IMG/VR virus record: IMGVR_UViG_3300028735_000039 | Span: 1-21,457 of that record | Reading direction: 5' to 3' (one strand) | Source: a virus | DNA length: 21,457 nt | Shown: positions 311 to 21,381 of the stretch, in pieces | Position numbering within the stretch: the first letter of the stretch is position 1 | How the letters are laid out: the number at the start of each line of letters is the position of its first letter | The notes under the pieces: generated by a model | Told to the model about the DNA's origin: nothing | The model's database searches: none | The model's input: only the letters and a program-made list of their open reading frames with translations | Program-made: the position numbers and the translations under genes

Positions 311-355
311 CTTCTAAGCAGAGGGTCGCAGGTTCGAGTCCTGCCGGTCCTGCCA
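311..355 (+). repeat. attL core: 45-bp repeat equal to the 3' half of tRNA-Arg(UCU)
   Basis: The 45 bases are identical to 21331-21375. They start with the anticodon loop CTTCTAA (anticodon TCT), then GCAGA, a variable loop, a perfect T arm (GCAGG, TTCGAGT, CCTGC), acceptor strand CGGTCCT, discriminator G and CCA. The upstream bases cannot complete a tRNA: the required acceptor partner AGGACCG is absent and only 3 of 5 anticodon-stem bases pair. It is therefore a tRNA 3' fragment acting as an attachment core, not a working tRNA. Confidence 0.9.
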
Positions 356-359
356 TTCC

Positions 360-402
360 TTATCAATCACTTACAATCCCCACTGATAGCCGGATTATCA
401 AT
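360..402. repeat. Direct repeat TTATCAAT x2 inside the left end (candidate arm-type integrase sites)
   Basis: TTATCAAT is found at 360-367 and 395-402, 35 bp apart, immediately inside attL and upstream of the integrase operon. Position and size fit integrase arm sites. The same stretch has a weak promoter-like pair, TTACAA at 371-376 and ATTATC at 394-399 with a 17-bp spacer, so integrase binding here could also repress its own operon. Both roles are inferred from position. Confidence 0.35.
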
Positions 403-452: not shown

Positions 453-698
453 ATGCGATTTCAACGGTTTAGCGATGAACAAGTCCGTGCAATGTATTTG
501 CAGGCCAAGTCCTGCAACGGTGGAAACCCATCTCCACAGGCCACTCATGATCTCGATGAGATCGTCTCTAAAGTGCTGACAAGGCTGGACAAAGAGGATG
601 CTGCGGATCAGATGGGGATCTGGTTCACAACCAAGGACCACTTGTCTGATGGGCATTTCTTCGCCGAGATGATGCGCCGGCTGACGGAGGGAAGGTGA
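453..698 (+). CDS. 81-residue protein coupled to the integrase (directionality factor candidate)
   Basis: This short gene starts at ATG 453 with GAGG eight bases upstream, and its TGA overlaps the integrase ATG (TGATG at 696-700), so the two are almost certainly translated together. The protein is acidic and mostly helical, without signal peptide, membrane segment or a helix-turn-helix I can recognise. Motifs such as FSDEQVRAMYLQAK and HDLDEIVSKVL suggest a small helical fold. Being the first gene inside attL and directly upstream of int is the usual place for an excisionase or an integrase modulator. That role is inferred from context only. No family is recognised. Confidence 0.8.
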   Translation: MRFQRFSDEQVRAMYLQAKSCNGGNPSPQATHDLDEIVSKVLTRLDKEDAADQMGIWFTTKDHLSDGHFFAEMMRRLTEGR

Positions 699-1825
699 TG
701 CGCCTCTATCGCCCTACTTCGACCAAGGCCGGCCGCACCTATACCAGCAGCATCTGGTGGGTTGAGGCGTCGTTTGACGGCCAGCTGATTCGGTTCTCTA
801 CTGGAACCAGCGACCACAAAGAGGCGAGGAAACAGGCCTTGATTGGTTTGGCTGAACGCATCCAGGCCGCCCTCGCCGGCGAGGTCAAGACGATCCGGGA
901 GGCTGCCGAAGAGTACCTGTCAGCACTCCGGGCATCCAGGGCGGCCAAGACGGTTGAAACAGCACGGGCTGCATTGCGGCCCGTCCTTGCCGTCTTCGGC
1001 CACAAGCTGACAGCGCCTCCACCCTCCTCGGAAGAAATCCAGCAGTACGTCAACAGGATCGCCACTTCTCTCTCTGGCCGTACTGTTCGGATGCGCATCC
1101 AGCACCTCGCCCGGGTCTTAGGCAGCACGCCCAAAGCCTTGTGGCCGAAGTTACGGATGCCATCAGAGGTAACGGATATCGGCAGGGCACTCAGCGATGA
1201 CGAGATCAGCCGCATCCTGCATGCTGCTGACTCGATGGCCGCCGGCAGTGATGGTTCTGTCCAGGTTGAGGCGTCTGATGGGCGTGTTTTCCAGCAGCGC
1301 CGGCACTCCAGAGGCGTCCTCATGCCGTGCTATCTCCGAGTCTTGTTGTGGACAGGGATGCGGGCCGGCGAGGCAAAGAGGCTACAGTGGCGTCACCTAG
1401 ACCTCGACGCCTGCCTGATCGACGTGCCAGGTAGCAAGACCGCAGCAGCGAGGCGTCGTGTTCCGATTGCGCCGACCTTGATGGAGACGCTACTCAGGCA
1501 TCGTGACTGGTACGTCGAGAAGTTCGGCCGGACAGATCCGGAATGGTATCTCTTCCCCGCCGGCAGCCCTCAACCAGCCGATCCTCGCAAGCCGGTTGCT
1601 GATTTGACGAACGCCTGGGACAGCATCCGGGAACGGGCCGGCGTGGAGTGCAGAATCCATGACCTCCGGCACACCTTCATCAGTAGGTTGGCCGAAGCCG
1701 GCACGCCGGAGACAACAATCATGGAGATCGTGGGTCATGTTTCACGCGCCATGCTGCTACGCTATAGCCACAGCCGGCTGGAGGCGCGGAGGGCGGCCGT
1801 GAGTGCGATCAGGATAGGTGTGTGA
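698..1825 (+). CDS. int: Tyrosine recombinase / phage integrase
   Basis: This 375-residue site-specific recombinase would integrate and excise the element at the tRNA-Arg core. The N-terminal half (about 1-160) holds the arm-binding and SAM-like core-binding regions. The C-terminal catalytic domain shows the full active site: Arg222 in GMRAGE, Lys247 in PGSK, His321 and Arg324 in HDLRH, His347 in GHVSR and the nucleophile Tyr356 in LRYSH. Residues about 178-208 form a longer loop than usual before the first catalytic Arg. ATG 698 is preferred because it overlaps the upstream stop and has GGAGGGAAGG just upstream. An in-frame GTG at 695 is the alternative and adds one residue. It is convergent with the late operon. 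Confidence 0.96.
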   Translation: MRLYRPTSTKAGRTYTSSIWWVEASFDGQLIRFSTGTSDHKEARKQALIGLAERIQAALAGEVKTIREAAEEYLSALRASRAAKTVETARAALRPVLAVFGHKLTAPPPSSEEIQQYVNRIATSLSGRTVRMRIQHLARVLGSTPKALWPKLRMPSEVTDIGRALSDDEISRILHAADSMAAGSDGSVQVEASDGRVFQQRRHSRGVLMPCYLRVLLWTGMRAGEAKRLQWRHLDLDACLIDVPGSKTAAARRRVPIAPTLMETLLRHRDWYVEKFGRTDPEWYLFPAGSPQPADPRKPVADLTNAWDSIRERAGVECRIHDLRHTFISRLAEAGTPETTIMEIVGHVSRAMLLRYSHSRLEARRAAVSAIRIGV

Positions 1826-10644: not shown

Positions 10645-10988
10645 CATGCCTCCTCGACAACAGGCCTGCAATACAGCTGGCAGTACGGCCCTTTTTGGTC
10701 AATCCCCTCGGTAATCGCCACAATTTCGTAGCGCCTCATCGTGCCTTTGTAGTCGGTTGTCAGCCGGCATCCTTCATCGCAGTATGTCGGCAGTTTGGCC
10801 AGGCGCACATACAACATGTCCCTCAGGACTTCACCTCCGCCGGACACAGCATCCTCGCCAAGGTCGCTTCTCGTCGTCGCCGGCACAACCCACGCCCACA
10901 ACAGCGCGAAGTCCTGCCAAACAACCTGATCCTCGCCAGTAGCCTGGCGCGATCGTGTGGGTCTCCACAATGTGATACGCCGGCGCAT
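10644..10988 (-). CDS. Head-tail joining protein (SPP1 gp16-like stopper)
   Basis: At 114 residues, this protein matches head-tail joining (stopper) proteins in size, position and pattern: beta strands with ITLWRPTRSRQATGEDQVVW near the start, LWAWVVPATTRSD, and a final strand DYKGTMRRYEIVAITEG. Proteins of this group attach below the connector and keep DNA in the head until the tail binds. It begins 3 bp after the gp6-like stop and shares its stop with the next start (TGATG). Sequence identity in this family is low, so the assignment rests on gene order as much as on motifs. Confidence 0.78.
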   Translation of the reverse strand: MRRRITLWRPTRSRQATGEDQVVWQDFALLWAWVVPATTRSDLGEDAVSGGGEVLRDMLYVRLAKLPTYCDEGCRLTTDYKGTMRRYEIVAITEGIDQKGPYCQLYCRPVVEEA

Positions 10989-17897: not shown

Positions 17898-17989
17898 TAT
17901 CTTGCCCTCCGAACGATCAAGGCGATGAGGATAAGGCTGCACAGGGTGATGATGATACGGCCGATCGCGAGGATGTGTTCTGCGTTCAT
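17897..17989 (-). CDS. 30-residue single-helix membrane peptide
   Basis: ATG 17989 opens a 30-codon frame ending in TAA at 17899-17897, which shares bases with the next start (TAATG). After a short start MNAEH, the peptide is one hydrophobic helix (ILAIGRIIITLCSLILIALI) followed by VRRAR, a positive tail that should stay in the cytoplasm. Only a weak AGG lies upstream. It is the first gene of the late operon after the origin region. A function as a holin-like or regulatory membrane peptide is possible. Its coupling to the 104-residue gene is the main support that it is real. Confidence 0.55.
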   Translation of the reverse strand: MNAEHILAIGRIIITLCSLILIALIVRRAR

Positions 17990-18185
17990 CGCAGCCTGTA
18001 GTATCTGCTTTACGGCCGGCTGGAAGTGCAAGGGTTGCCGGGGGTGTGTGTCTGCCGGCCGAGACGCCACCGCCTCTCCCTGTGGCTGTGCTGCCTCGCC
18101 AGGCTACCATGGACGCCAAGGTTGGCCCGCAACGGGCGGGCGGCCCCTGTCACCACCACCATCCCTGACCATAGAAACAACGCTT

Positions 18186-18375
18186 CCGGGTTTCCGGGTT
18201 TCCCGGGTTTTTTGTGGCCCCTCTCTACACACACACAATACTAAAATTTTTTCCCACGCGTATGCATTAGAAAAAAAACCCGGAAACCCGGCAACGCGAC
18301 GTAACCTATTGTTAAGCAAAGACTTAACTTCCGGGTTTCTTCAAACAAAAACCCGGCAGAAACCCGGAAACCCGG
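18186..18375. other. Candidate replication origin: nine 8-bp iterons flanking AT-rich DNA
   Basis: CCGGGTTT occurs at 18186, 18194, 18203 and 18331, and its complement AAACCCGG at 18276, 18284, 18349, 18360 and 18368. The left three and the right two face each other across 18211-18275, whose second half is AT-rich with a run of T then a run of A. A further AT-rich part (18292-18330) contains GTTAAG/CTTAAC, a 6-bp inverted repeat. No open frame is supported in 17990-18472. The array lies just downstream of the primase-helicase gene and its terminator, as origins of phage satellites do. The likely binder is the primase-helicase C-terminal domain. Confidence 0.72.
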
Positions 18376-18414
18376 CAGAAAACCACCCACACCCACCCAC
18401 TTGCGGACACGAAA

Positions 18415-18442
18415 AAGGGGCGACACCAGCGCGCCGCCCCTT
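18415..18442 (-). terminator. Terminator of the primase-helicase transcript
   Basis: AAGGGGCG (18415-18422) pairs with CGCCCCTT (18435-18442). Read leftward, the stem is followed by a run of T (CCCCTTTTTCG), the standard intrinsic pattern. It lies 30 bp after the primase stop and shields the origin from transcription coming through the primase gene. The late operon must therefore start from its own promoter in 17990-18186; I could not identify that promoter. Confidence 0.8.
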
Positions 18443-18472
18443 GCGTTGTGGATTCTGGCGTGTGGGGACGTG

Positions 18473-20803
18473 TTACTCTTCCACGATCCTCCATTCAGAG
18501 GTGTTGGTGTTATGGTTTACGCCTTGTCGCAGGCTGAACCCTCCGATTTTGACATTGGCCCACCGCATCAGGTAGCGACCCGCCCGCCGCCGGTTGAGGT
18601 TGCCGCCCTCAGTCAGGTGATCCAACGCGCCGCGCAATGCCTGTGATGTATGCATCGCGGCTGCGATATCGGCAACGGTAAATGATTCCACGCCGAACAC
18701 GTCTTTCAACGCGCGGATGGTTGCCGAGAATTCATCTCTGGCCGGATCTTCTGCCCTCAGCGCCTCCATCGAGTCACAGATGTCCACGCCGGTCAGCCAG
18801 CACAGGCTTGACCGCACGAGGTCACTCCAGTTATCAAATCCGGCTAGTCTTGGCAACACCCCAGGCTTGCCGGCCGCAATGTACGCCAACACGATTGTCA
18901 TGATATTGGCGAGATACTGCGGACGGTTGTCCAACGCATGGCGCAACGGAGAACCCGAGAATTGCCGCAGTTCTGGCCGTTCTTCGGCGGGTGATAGCCG
19001 GATCGGGATTGTGCGTCGAAGCAGGTCTCCGGAGACCCTGACATTGTTGCCGGTGGCATAAATCGCCGAGGCTGGTGTGACGGAGATCATCTCGCTTCGG
19101 CCAAGAGGTCGCAGGCGTATCTCTGACTCAGAAGAGATCGCCTGACACAGGATGTCAGACTCCAAAACTCCGGTAATGTTATCAAGACACATGGTTTGGG
19201 CTGGAGATAGCAGCGCCGCTGTAACTCTCTTGTCTAACTCATCGCCGCTTGCGCCGGATGCACCAATCACAGGTTGGCGCTTGCCTGTCGCGATTGCGCC
19301 GGCGATCTCGTATAAGTAGGTCTTGCCGCTGCCGGCTACCGGTGCTGAGATGAGGTGCATCGGGCACGGGCCTAGGGATGGACGTAACACTGCCGTCATG
19401 ATAGCGGACGTTGCTGAGATGCTGTCGCTGTACTCTGCGAATGGGAAATCTTGCAACAGGGTCATCAGCGATGACAGCGCCTCCACGGCGCCCTGTTTTG
19501 TTGGCTGGTTTGGGATCGTGATATCCGGCACTCCCGCCATCAGCATCATGCTGTCGGCGTCGTAGCCGTTGCCACAAGCCACACCGCCATCTCTGCGTAG
19601 TAATGGTGAGGCCGAGACGCCACGCAGCTGGCGGTAACGCCACTCGCCAACACGCGCCAGCATCATTGCCGGCAGGTCCCTTGGCATGTCGCACTCTATC
19701 TTCACTGCGCCGAGTTTTGATGTCTTGACTTTGTAGAACCGAATATGCTTGGAAATCCGAAGTTTCAGGTCGTCTGCGCCAATCTCCCGGATGTGTAGTG
19801 CGCCGTCGATCAGCGTGGGCGCAACGAGGCGGCCACCTTGCTGGTAGACATCGCAGTCTGGTTGTGATGCGAGGATCTCCTCGCACCCGTCAGCCAGGGC
19901 CGCGATGTCGCCCACCGTGACCTCGCACTCCACTCGCCCACGGTCCCCCCCAACGTTGGCGTTGTGGCTTGTGATGTTGCTGGCAATGCCCAACCAATTC
20001 AACGCGGCCTTCAGCGCCTTCTCAGGGACCAATTCGGCCAGAGTCGGCAGGCCCGTCACATCACCGCCACCGCGGAACCTTGTATATGTGTGCGCAACTT
20101 CGGCGTCCGCCTGATGTGTGTTTGCACCAGCGCCCCAAAGGCAGCGATAGACGGCGCGTACGAATTGTGCCGCCTCCTCCTCCGTCCAGCCGGCCCGCGC
20201 AAGCACTCCCGCCAGCGCCAGAAACGCTTGGTTACGGCTGCCCTCTCCGGGCCAGTGTCTGGCTAGTAGCGCCGCAGCAGCCACACGCGCCACGGCCTTC
20301 GCCAGCACGTCTGTCTGCACCGCCGCCGCTTGCGGGCCGCACCCAGACTCGAACCGGATTAACTCCCCACTTGGGTGTGTAGACGGTGGCACCACTGACT
20401 GCGCCCCAGACTCTCCACGGCGCGACAGGCCACGCAGTTCGCACAGGCTTGCGCCAGTAAGCGGGCATTTGTATTGCCGCGTCGCCGGAACAGGGTCGCA
20501 CGCATACATGGCGTGCGAGGCAGGCTTTGATTGCCGGCCGTAGCGGAAGGGAGTAGGTGGCAGTAGTTCTCGTGCCGCCTCTACCGCTTCGGGCGCGTCC
20601 AGGTCAACGTCTGTCAGGCCGCCCACGCCAAGGATCAGGCCGATGTTCTGAGGCTGCCCGTTGAAGTAGCGGCCCACTTCTGCCAGTGAGATGCGGAGTT
20701 TTTGCCATTCTGGTGTGTTCGGGTTCTTTTGTCCGTGCGGGATCGGCACCGGCGCAAAGCCGGCATGGATGTACGCCATTGCGGATTCATACGGTTTCGT
20801 CAT
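18473..20803 (-). CDS. Primase-polymerase / AAA+ helicase replication protein
   Basis: This 776-residue protein combines an N-terminal AEP-type prim-pol domain (about 1-160: GLTDVDLD with Asp65 and Asp67, SKPASHAMY with His97, SVVPPSTHPSG), a helical linker (EGSRNQAFLALAGVLARAGW), and an ATPase with Walker A APVAGSGKT at 487-495, Walker B TMCLDN with Asp541, YATGNN at 582-587 and paired Arg at 596-597. The last about 90 residues look like a winged helix (FTVADIAAAMHTSQALRGAL). It should unwind and prime the element's own origin. ATG 20803 has GGAGG upstream. An in-frame GTG at 20953 would add 50 basic residues without a ribosome site. Confidence 0.93.
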   Translation of the reverse strand: MTKPYESAMAYIHAGFAPVPIPHGQKNPNTPEWQKLRISLAEVGRYFNGQPQNIGLILGVGGLTDVDLDAPEAVEAARELLPPTPFRYGRQSKPASHAMYACDPVPATRQYKCPLTGASLCELRGLSRRGESGAQSVVPPSTHPSGELIRFESGCGPQAAAVQTDVLAKAVARVAAAALLARHWPGEGSRNQAFLALAGVLARAGWTEEEAAQFVRAVYRCLWGAGANTHQADAEVAHTYTRFRGGGDVTGLPTLAELVPEKALKAALNWLGIASNITSHNANVGGDRGRVECEVTVGDIAALADGCEEILASQPDCDVYQQGGRLVAPTLIDGALHIREIGADDLKLRISKHIRFYKVKTSKLGAVKIECDMPRDLPAMMLARVGEWRYRQLRGVSASPLLRRDGGVACGNGYDADSMMLMAGVPDITIPNQPTKQGAVEALSSLMTLLQDFPFAEYSDSISATSAIMTAVLRPSLGPCPMHLISAPVAGSGKTYLYEIAGAIATGKRQPVIGASGASGDELDKRVTAALLSPAQTMCLDNITGVLESDILCQAISSESEIRLRPLGRSEMISVTPASAIYATGNNVRVSGDLLRRTIPIRLSPAEERPELRQFSGSPLRHALDNRPQYLANIMTIVLAYIAAGKPGVLPRLAGFDNWSDLVRSSLCWLTGVDICDSMEALRAEDPARDEFSATIRALKDVFGVESFTVADIAAAMHTSQALRGALDHLTEGGNLNRRRAGRYLMRWANVKIGGFSLRQGVNHNTNTSEWRIVEE

Positions 20804-20909: not shown

Positions 20910-21040
20910 GGCTTGACTAGTATCCGCGTCTTTCCGGTGGCCCGCTTGGCCACGCAGATTATTTTTTCTTAATCTTCACTGATGACTGCGATAGGACTCC
21001 CTGTTGATGCCAAGAAGGGGCCGGCCAAGCCGGCGAGGGC

Positions 21041-21330: not shown

Positions 21331-21375
21331 CTTCTAAGCAGAGGGTCGCAGGTTCGAGTCCTGCCGGTCCTGCCA
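21331..21375 (+). repeat. attR core: second copy of the 45-bp tRNA-Arg(UCU) 3' half
   Basis: Identical to 311-355 over 45 bases. The bases differ immediately outside on both sides (C versus A before, T versus A after). No anticodon-stem partner precedes it: none of the five bases before the anticodon loop pair with the 3' stem strand. It is therefore an att copy rather than a tRNA gene. Confidence 0.9.
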
Positions 21376-21381
21376 ATCTTT

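Follow-up and report, generated by a model that had tools for sequence, protein, structure and literature searches.

The window analysed here is a whole virus record of 21,457 bases (IMG/VR IMGVR_UViG_3300028735_000039, positions 1 to 21,457). A 51-bp direct repeat, 96% identical between its copies and resembling the 3′ part of a tRNA, lies at both ends, and because of these repeats we read the record as most likely holding a complete prophage of ~21.0 kb, with attL and attR at its borders (Table 1). ARAGORN recovered no whole tRNA in either flank. The plus strand carries a tyrosine integrase gene, while the genes for the primase-helicase, HNH, small and large terminase, head and tail proteins are on the minus strand. 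Protein families were matched for the large and small terminase, HNH, tail assembly and baseplate hub genes; translations of other reading frames are portal-, protease-, capsid- and tape measure-like. Apart from the primase-helicase, no replication genes were recognised among the window ORFs scanned, and the proteins scanned included no Rep_3-type winged-helix initiator family, no recognisable partition gene and no second initiator. A helicase-only search of viral and genome contigs found no close relatives of the prophage, and the array region described below had no blastn match in phages.

A gap of ~570 bp follows the primase-helicase gene before the next one on its strand. In this gap, starting ~100 bp past the primase-helicase stop codon and beyond the terminator of that gene, is an array of the octamer CCGGGTTT. 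The octamer has nine exact copies in the window, all of them within 18186-18375 and in both orientations. Dinucleotide shuffles of the window (100 in all) give a mean of 0.65 copies and a maximum of 5, which rules out a chance origin for the cluster. The original prediction described nine opposed 8-bp copies, an inverted repeat, an AT-rich stretch, a lack of coding potential and an intrinsic terminator between gene and array, and each of these was recovered; six chance reading frames overlap or adjoin the array, with no match to any phage protein family. Its account of the arrangement holds overall and needs two small corrections: the third forward copy is shifted by one C (18202), and 3 bases separate the copy at 18349 from the last two reverse copies.

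Table 1. Positions of the prophage borders, the replication genes and the elements of the octamer array in the window
Feature	Position	Strand	Basis or remark
att repeat, left	311..361	.	51 nt, 96% identity with 21331-21381
Tyrosine integrase	695..1825	+	Protein family match
Iteron, distal opposed triplet	18186..18193	+	Exact match
Iteron, distal opposed triplet	18194..18201	+	Exact match
Iteron, distal opposed triplet	18203..18210	+	Exact match
AT-richer spacer with alternating purine/pyrimidine tract (ATGCATACGCGTG, gene strand)	18211..18275	.	
Iteron, inner pair	18276..18283	-	Exact match
Iteron, inner pair	18284..18291	-	Exact match
Inverted repeat GTTAAG-N6-CTTAAC, between single opposed iteron and inner pair	18311..18328	.	
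Single opposed iteron	18331..18338	+	Exact match; relatives have one at the same place
Iteron, gene-proximal triplet	18349..18356	-	Exact match
Iteron, gene-proximal triplet	18360..18367	-	Exact match
Iteron CCGGGTTT, first of gene-proximal triplet (gene-strand forward)	18368..18375	-	Exact match
Intrinsic terminator of primase-helicase gene, 12-bp stem, between gene and array	18415..18442	-	
Primase-helicase gene, 776 aa from ATG; putative initiator	18473..20803	-	
C-terminal winged-helix domain, residues 687-776, predicted iteron reader	18476..18745	-	AlphaFold model
Prim-pol domain PF09250, residues 8-154	20342..20782	-	Pfam, E 2e-12
att repeat, right	21331..21381	.	51 nt, 96% identity with 311-361

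In the spacer that separates the far triplet from the inner pair, the GC content drops to 37-40% (18210-18275) against about 57% overall, and this spacer is likely the segment that melts. An alternating purine/pyrimidine tract of 13 bases in this segment is significant (p 0.015), as are such tracts in the viral contig L005, the Streptomyces plasmid pWTY27 and a few others; this significance is not family-wide, and the tract was dropped as a general feature of the family. As single-stranded DNA, the 200-base array segment folds far better than its shuffles (z -7.2), as is bound to happen with opposed repeats. GC skew is uninformative, being flat with no switch at the array.

The candidate initiator would reach 826 aa if its reading frame were counted from a GTG at 20953. 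Its Pfam match is confined to the prim-pol domain, and the helicase part has no sequence family in Pfam, NCBIfam or the PDB; a sequence search of the PDB returned designed proteins and weak P-loop matches only. An AlphaFold model of the helicase, built from 52 aligned sequences, has a mean pLDDT of 93.9, and its best matches among solved structures in Foldseek are AsfvPrimPol, the SaPI5 primase-helicase, PriRep1-dsDNA, MPXV E5 (of the poxvirus D5/E5 type) and NrS-1, with TM-scores of about 0.4 and E-values of about 1e-6 to 1e-8. In its predicted model, then, the helicase is folded like SaPI PriRep and D5/AsfvPrimPol, with a winged helix at the C-terminus. By inspection, the last 90 residues form helices, a two-strand wing and a candidate recognition helix (model residues 451-460, protein residues 738-747), which makes a winged helix, predicted with high confidence.

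The association between octamer and helicase was approached from both sides. Going from DNA to protein, we searched the doubled octamer CCGGGTTTCCGGGTTT in 2.9 million viral contigs, ignoring genes. There were 11 loci, and a true array in only one of them, L005, which hosts eight exact octamers within 230 bp. The L005 array adjoins a 549-aa protein that is 27% identical to the window helicase over 520 residues, through the C-terminus (E 7e-41), although here the array precedes the helicase gene instead of following it. A wider search for octamer pairs with a gap allowed gave mostly chance pairs: 129 loci were checked and L005 alone has a family helicase. Going from protein to DNA, tblastn of the window protein against plasmids has matches that include pCM32 and pWTY27, and in pCM32 nine copies of the identical octamer are found, the first just 12 bp past the helicase stop codon. 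The exact octamer was found again in just these two relatives, L005 and pCM32, in the range of ~27-37% protein identity.

Some repeat arrays were seen in other surroundings. In the unrelated-looking contig L152, which has no helicase, CCGGGTTT recurs at 44-bp steps (10664-10775), possibly as part of another repeat system. The contigs L191 (11227-11474) and L189 (2056-2303) carry near-identical two-orientation arrays of the ACCGGGTTT/GACCGGGTAG type, upstream of terminase-like genes in L191. A family helicase is not detectable in either contig, and both may be fragments.

The window helicase as sole query gave no relatives in viral or genome contigs and an alignment of 13 rows proved too diverse as a query, while a three-row alignment gave 69 viral and 50 genome loci. 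Reduction at 80% identity left 70 loci with enough downstream sequence. Family members occur in Pseudomonadota and Actinomycetota, on phages, prophages and plasmids, and also in archaeal elements. Among these archaeal elements are the virus vir525 (L029) and the Methanothrix plasmid pGP6 (L026), in which the family helicase is followed by GGG-core repeats, TGCGGGTA and CCGGGGATA. In Caulobacter phages, e.g. MZ574429.2 155498-156640, helicase homologues are labelled ‘PE-PGRS family protein’, a name that seems to have been given in error.

We tested the 340 bp past each stop codon for repeated 9-mers, allowing one mismatch. Iterons were significant in 44 of the 70 dereplicated relatives, with about a third having no significant array within that distance. 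All 44 significant arrays have both orientations and 35 of their motifs contain GGG, against 16.7 expected. An independent inverted-arm score reaches p<=0.05 in 50 of the 70 loci, against 3.5 expected, part of which could be terminators. The original prediction looked for the iterons to be conserved in close relatives that keep the gene; no close relative was found, and it is the position that most of the relatives share, the exact octamer being confined to the two relatives named above. The motifs themselves vary, e.g. AGTGGGTTT, AGGGGTTT, GCGGGTAT, TGCAGGGA, GCGGGGTTT and others.

In many proteobacterial members a triplet of copies with 9-bp steps is followed, after a spacer, by an inverted triplet, as illustrated by the Azospirillum element AZO_p2 (17> 26> 35> 113< 122< 131<, where numbers are starts past the stop codon on the gene strand). 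Between the opposed triplets many of these members (e.g. L016, L017, L062, L102 and L120) carry an element of the AAACTGTCA / TGACAGTTT type, located 40-160 bp past the helicase stop codon. ACTGTCA occurs in 24 of the 70 downstream stretches, about a third, against about 1 expected; it is absent from the window. The window array starts at 95> 103> 114> 135< 179> 187> 263< 272< 280<, or >>> < >> gap <<< in symbols. A Streptomyces plasmid, NZ_CP108626, has a different iteron, CGTGGGAAC, at 92> 103> 113> 130< 179> 188> 267< 276<, and a Nonomuraea element likewise differs from the window in iteron sequence. Yet at zero offset 8 of 9 window sites lie within 5 bp of a site in NZ_CP108626 (p 0.005, shuffled layouts). 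The Nonomuraea element also matches at 8 of 9 (p 0.01), and pWTY27 at 6 of 9, which is no more than suggestive (p 0.08); these values come from among twelve comparisons and are due some discount. In pCM32 and several other plasmids the layout is unlike that of the window.

In 45 loci, iteron similarity tracks the similarity of the C-terminal domain once that of the helicase core is removed (partial Mantel r 0.17-0.19, p 0.004-0.005), a modest effect, whereas with the C-terminal domain removed the core has no significant relation to the iterons (p 0.22). A reader role for the C-terminal domain gains support from this, since iteron similarity follows that domain and not the core.

Taken together, we consider that the array is very probably the replication origin of the prophage, and the adjacent primase-helicase its initiator. 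This reading is drawn because relatives of the helicase have like arrays, that of pWTY27 being an experimentally mapped origin. Comparison strongly supports it, through the location, the repeats, the homology to a proven origin/initiator pair, the apparently conserved geometry and the predicted fold. The original prediction of an origin with the 776-residue protein as initiator thus gains support from homology to the pWTY27 replicon, from the recurrence of the octamer in L005 and pCM32, and from the position of the arrays in most relatives. As a mechanism, we suggest that the C-terminal winged helix would bind the GGG-centred octamers, the opposed iteron groups would place two helicase rings around the AT-rich spacer with its alternating purines and pyrimidines, the spacer would melt, and the fused prim-pol domain would prime both forks. 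Loading and forks in both directions are plausible given the array geometry and the bidirectional replication of pWTY27.

Other functions for the array deserve consideration. The octamers could be operators, at which a regulator, either the helicase itself or a separate repressor, controls transcription of the downstream morphogenesis genes with no origin function. The array does sit in the gap that separates the terminated primase-helicase gene from the gene after it on that strand. However, no sigma-70-like promoter was found within 17900-18700, and the pWTY27 array is needed for replication (PMC3583192). Furthermore, homologous helicases in plasmids precede the same kind of array with wholly different genes downstream, and a separate DNA-binding regulator was not recognised among the proteins scanned. 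We therefore think operators quite improbable. Iterons of classical plasmids also serve copy control, and the array might accordingly be a set of copy-control, incompatibility or partition iterons, in which case the prophage would have its true origin at another place. It could be added that a 149-bp piece of the pWTY27 iteron region is insufficient for replication (PMC3583192). Against this, neither a partition gene nor another initiator was recognised, and the array matches in position, and partly in layout, a segment that is required for replication, which leaves this account just as improbable as operators. It is scarcely credible that the array is a packaging (cos/pac) element serving the terminase, whose gene lies about 2 kb downstream: HNH, small and large terminase genes do follow on the same strand, but similar arrays stand behind the helicase genes of pCM32 and pWTY27, where no terminases are annotated in the stretch read, and behind that of an archaeal plasmid, and the arrays vary with the helicase C-terminal domain.

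The origin reading of the window raises the possibility of a more general rule. A large helicase family that lacks a Pfam or NCBIfam model may share one origin plan, in which opposed groups of GGG-core iterons, often 9-bp-spaced triplets, lie immediately after the initiator gene, on either side of a spacer that can melt. This geometry would persist as the iteron bases around the core change in step with the C-terminal winged helix. One ring would be loaded at each group, so that an initiator of a single protein would set up bidirectional forks. We give this generalisation an even chance of being right. A limited literature search found no description of a family-wide origin plan, and the layout appears to be new to the literature.

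These results are of use in several ways. An origin and an initiator can be assigned, with the confidence given above, for a phage module with a helicase outside any named family, and origin positions are predicted for dozens of phages and plasmids in which the helicases are mostly ‘hypothetical proteins’. If the opposed-triplet rule is true, it offers a compact one-protein system for the opposite-direction loading of two replicative helicase rings, and a natural data set on shifts in the DNA specificity of a winged helix.

The window element belongs to a known kind of origin: it is pWTY27-like, and SaPI-like in logic. In pWTY27, repA, the prim-pol gene repB and a 300-bp non-coding segment after repA are each needed for replication in Streptomyces lividans (PMC3583192). 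The segment holds GTGGGAAC/TTCCCAC five times in direct and five times in inverted orientation and is bound by RepA in EMSA and DNase I footprints, and a construct fitted with telomeres is propagated in linear form, which was taken as bidirectional replication (PMC3583192). RepA is homologous to the window helicase (tblastn E 1e-24), and prim-pol, helicase, terminator and iterons follow in the same order in both, with a terminator-like hairpin and then GGG-core iterons in two orientations and a partly similar layout in pWTY27. Of the features of the pWTY27 type, the window thus has a RepA-homologous helicase, a prim-pol partner and short two-orientation iterons directly downstream. The differences are that prim-pol, fused at the N-terminus in the window, has a gene of its own (RepB) in pWTY27, that the iteron is GTGGGAAC rather than CCGGGTTT, and that one is a plasmid and the other a prophage. 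pCM32, a plasmid of Saccharopolyspora endophytica, shares a homologous helicase and nine exact copies of the identical octamer; the copies differ in order and orientation, and prim-pol is again a separate gene. Among plasmid-borne sequences the nearest relative, at 34.9% over 62% of the query, is the AZO_p2 prophage module of Azospirillum (L016), with an integrase, the helicase, downstream opposed iteron triplets of AGTGGGTTT and a terminase. It has a simple >>> <<< layout and, between the triplets, an ACTGTC element that is missing in the window.

A satellite analogy was also part of the original prediction, and it survives at the level of function. The P4 alpha protein is a fused primase and helicase with a C-terminal origin-binding domain that acts with ori/crr; the window helicase has no P4-type Pfam or NCBIfam match. 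The window element encodes a capsid, a terminase and a tail of its own, so it is not a satellite, for which a missing capsid, tail and packaging set would be the mark. The primase-helicase does have the predicted D5-like fold and C-terminal winged helix of PICI/P4-like proteins, with a PICI-type PriRep among the Foldseek matches. SaPI Rep/Pri and SCCmec Cch2 are self-loading D5/AAA+ helicases whose C-terminal DNA-binding domain recognises an iteron origin directly downstream of their own gene, the Cch2 iteron being AAGTG (PMC7581432). These proteins and the window helicase match in fold and in having iterons directly behind the helicase gene, while they have no family match at the sequence level and their iterons are unrelated in sequence; the window differs further in being a whole phage, neither satellite nor cassette.
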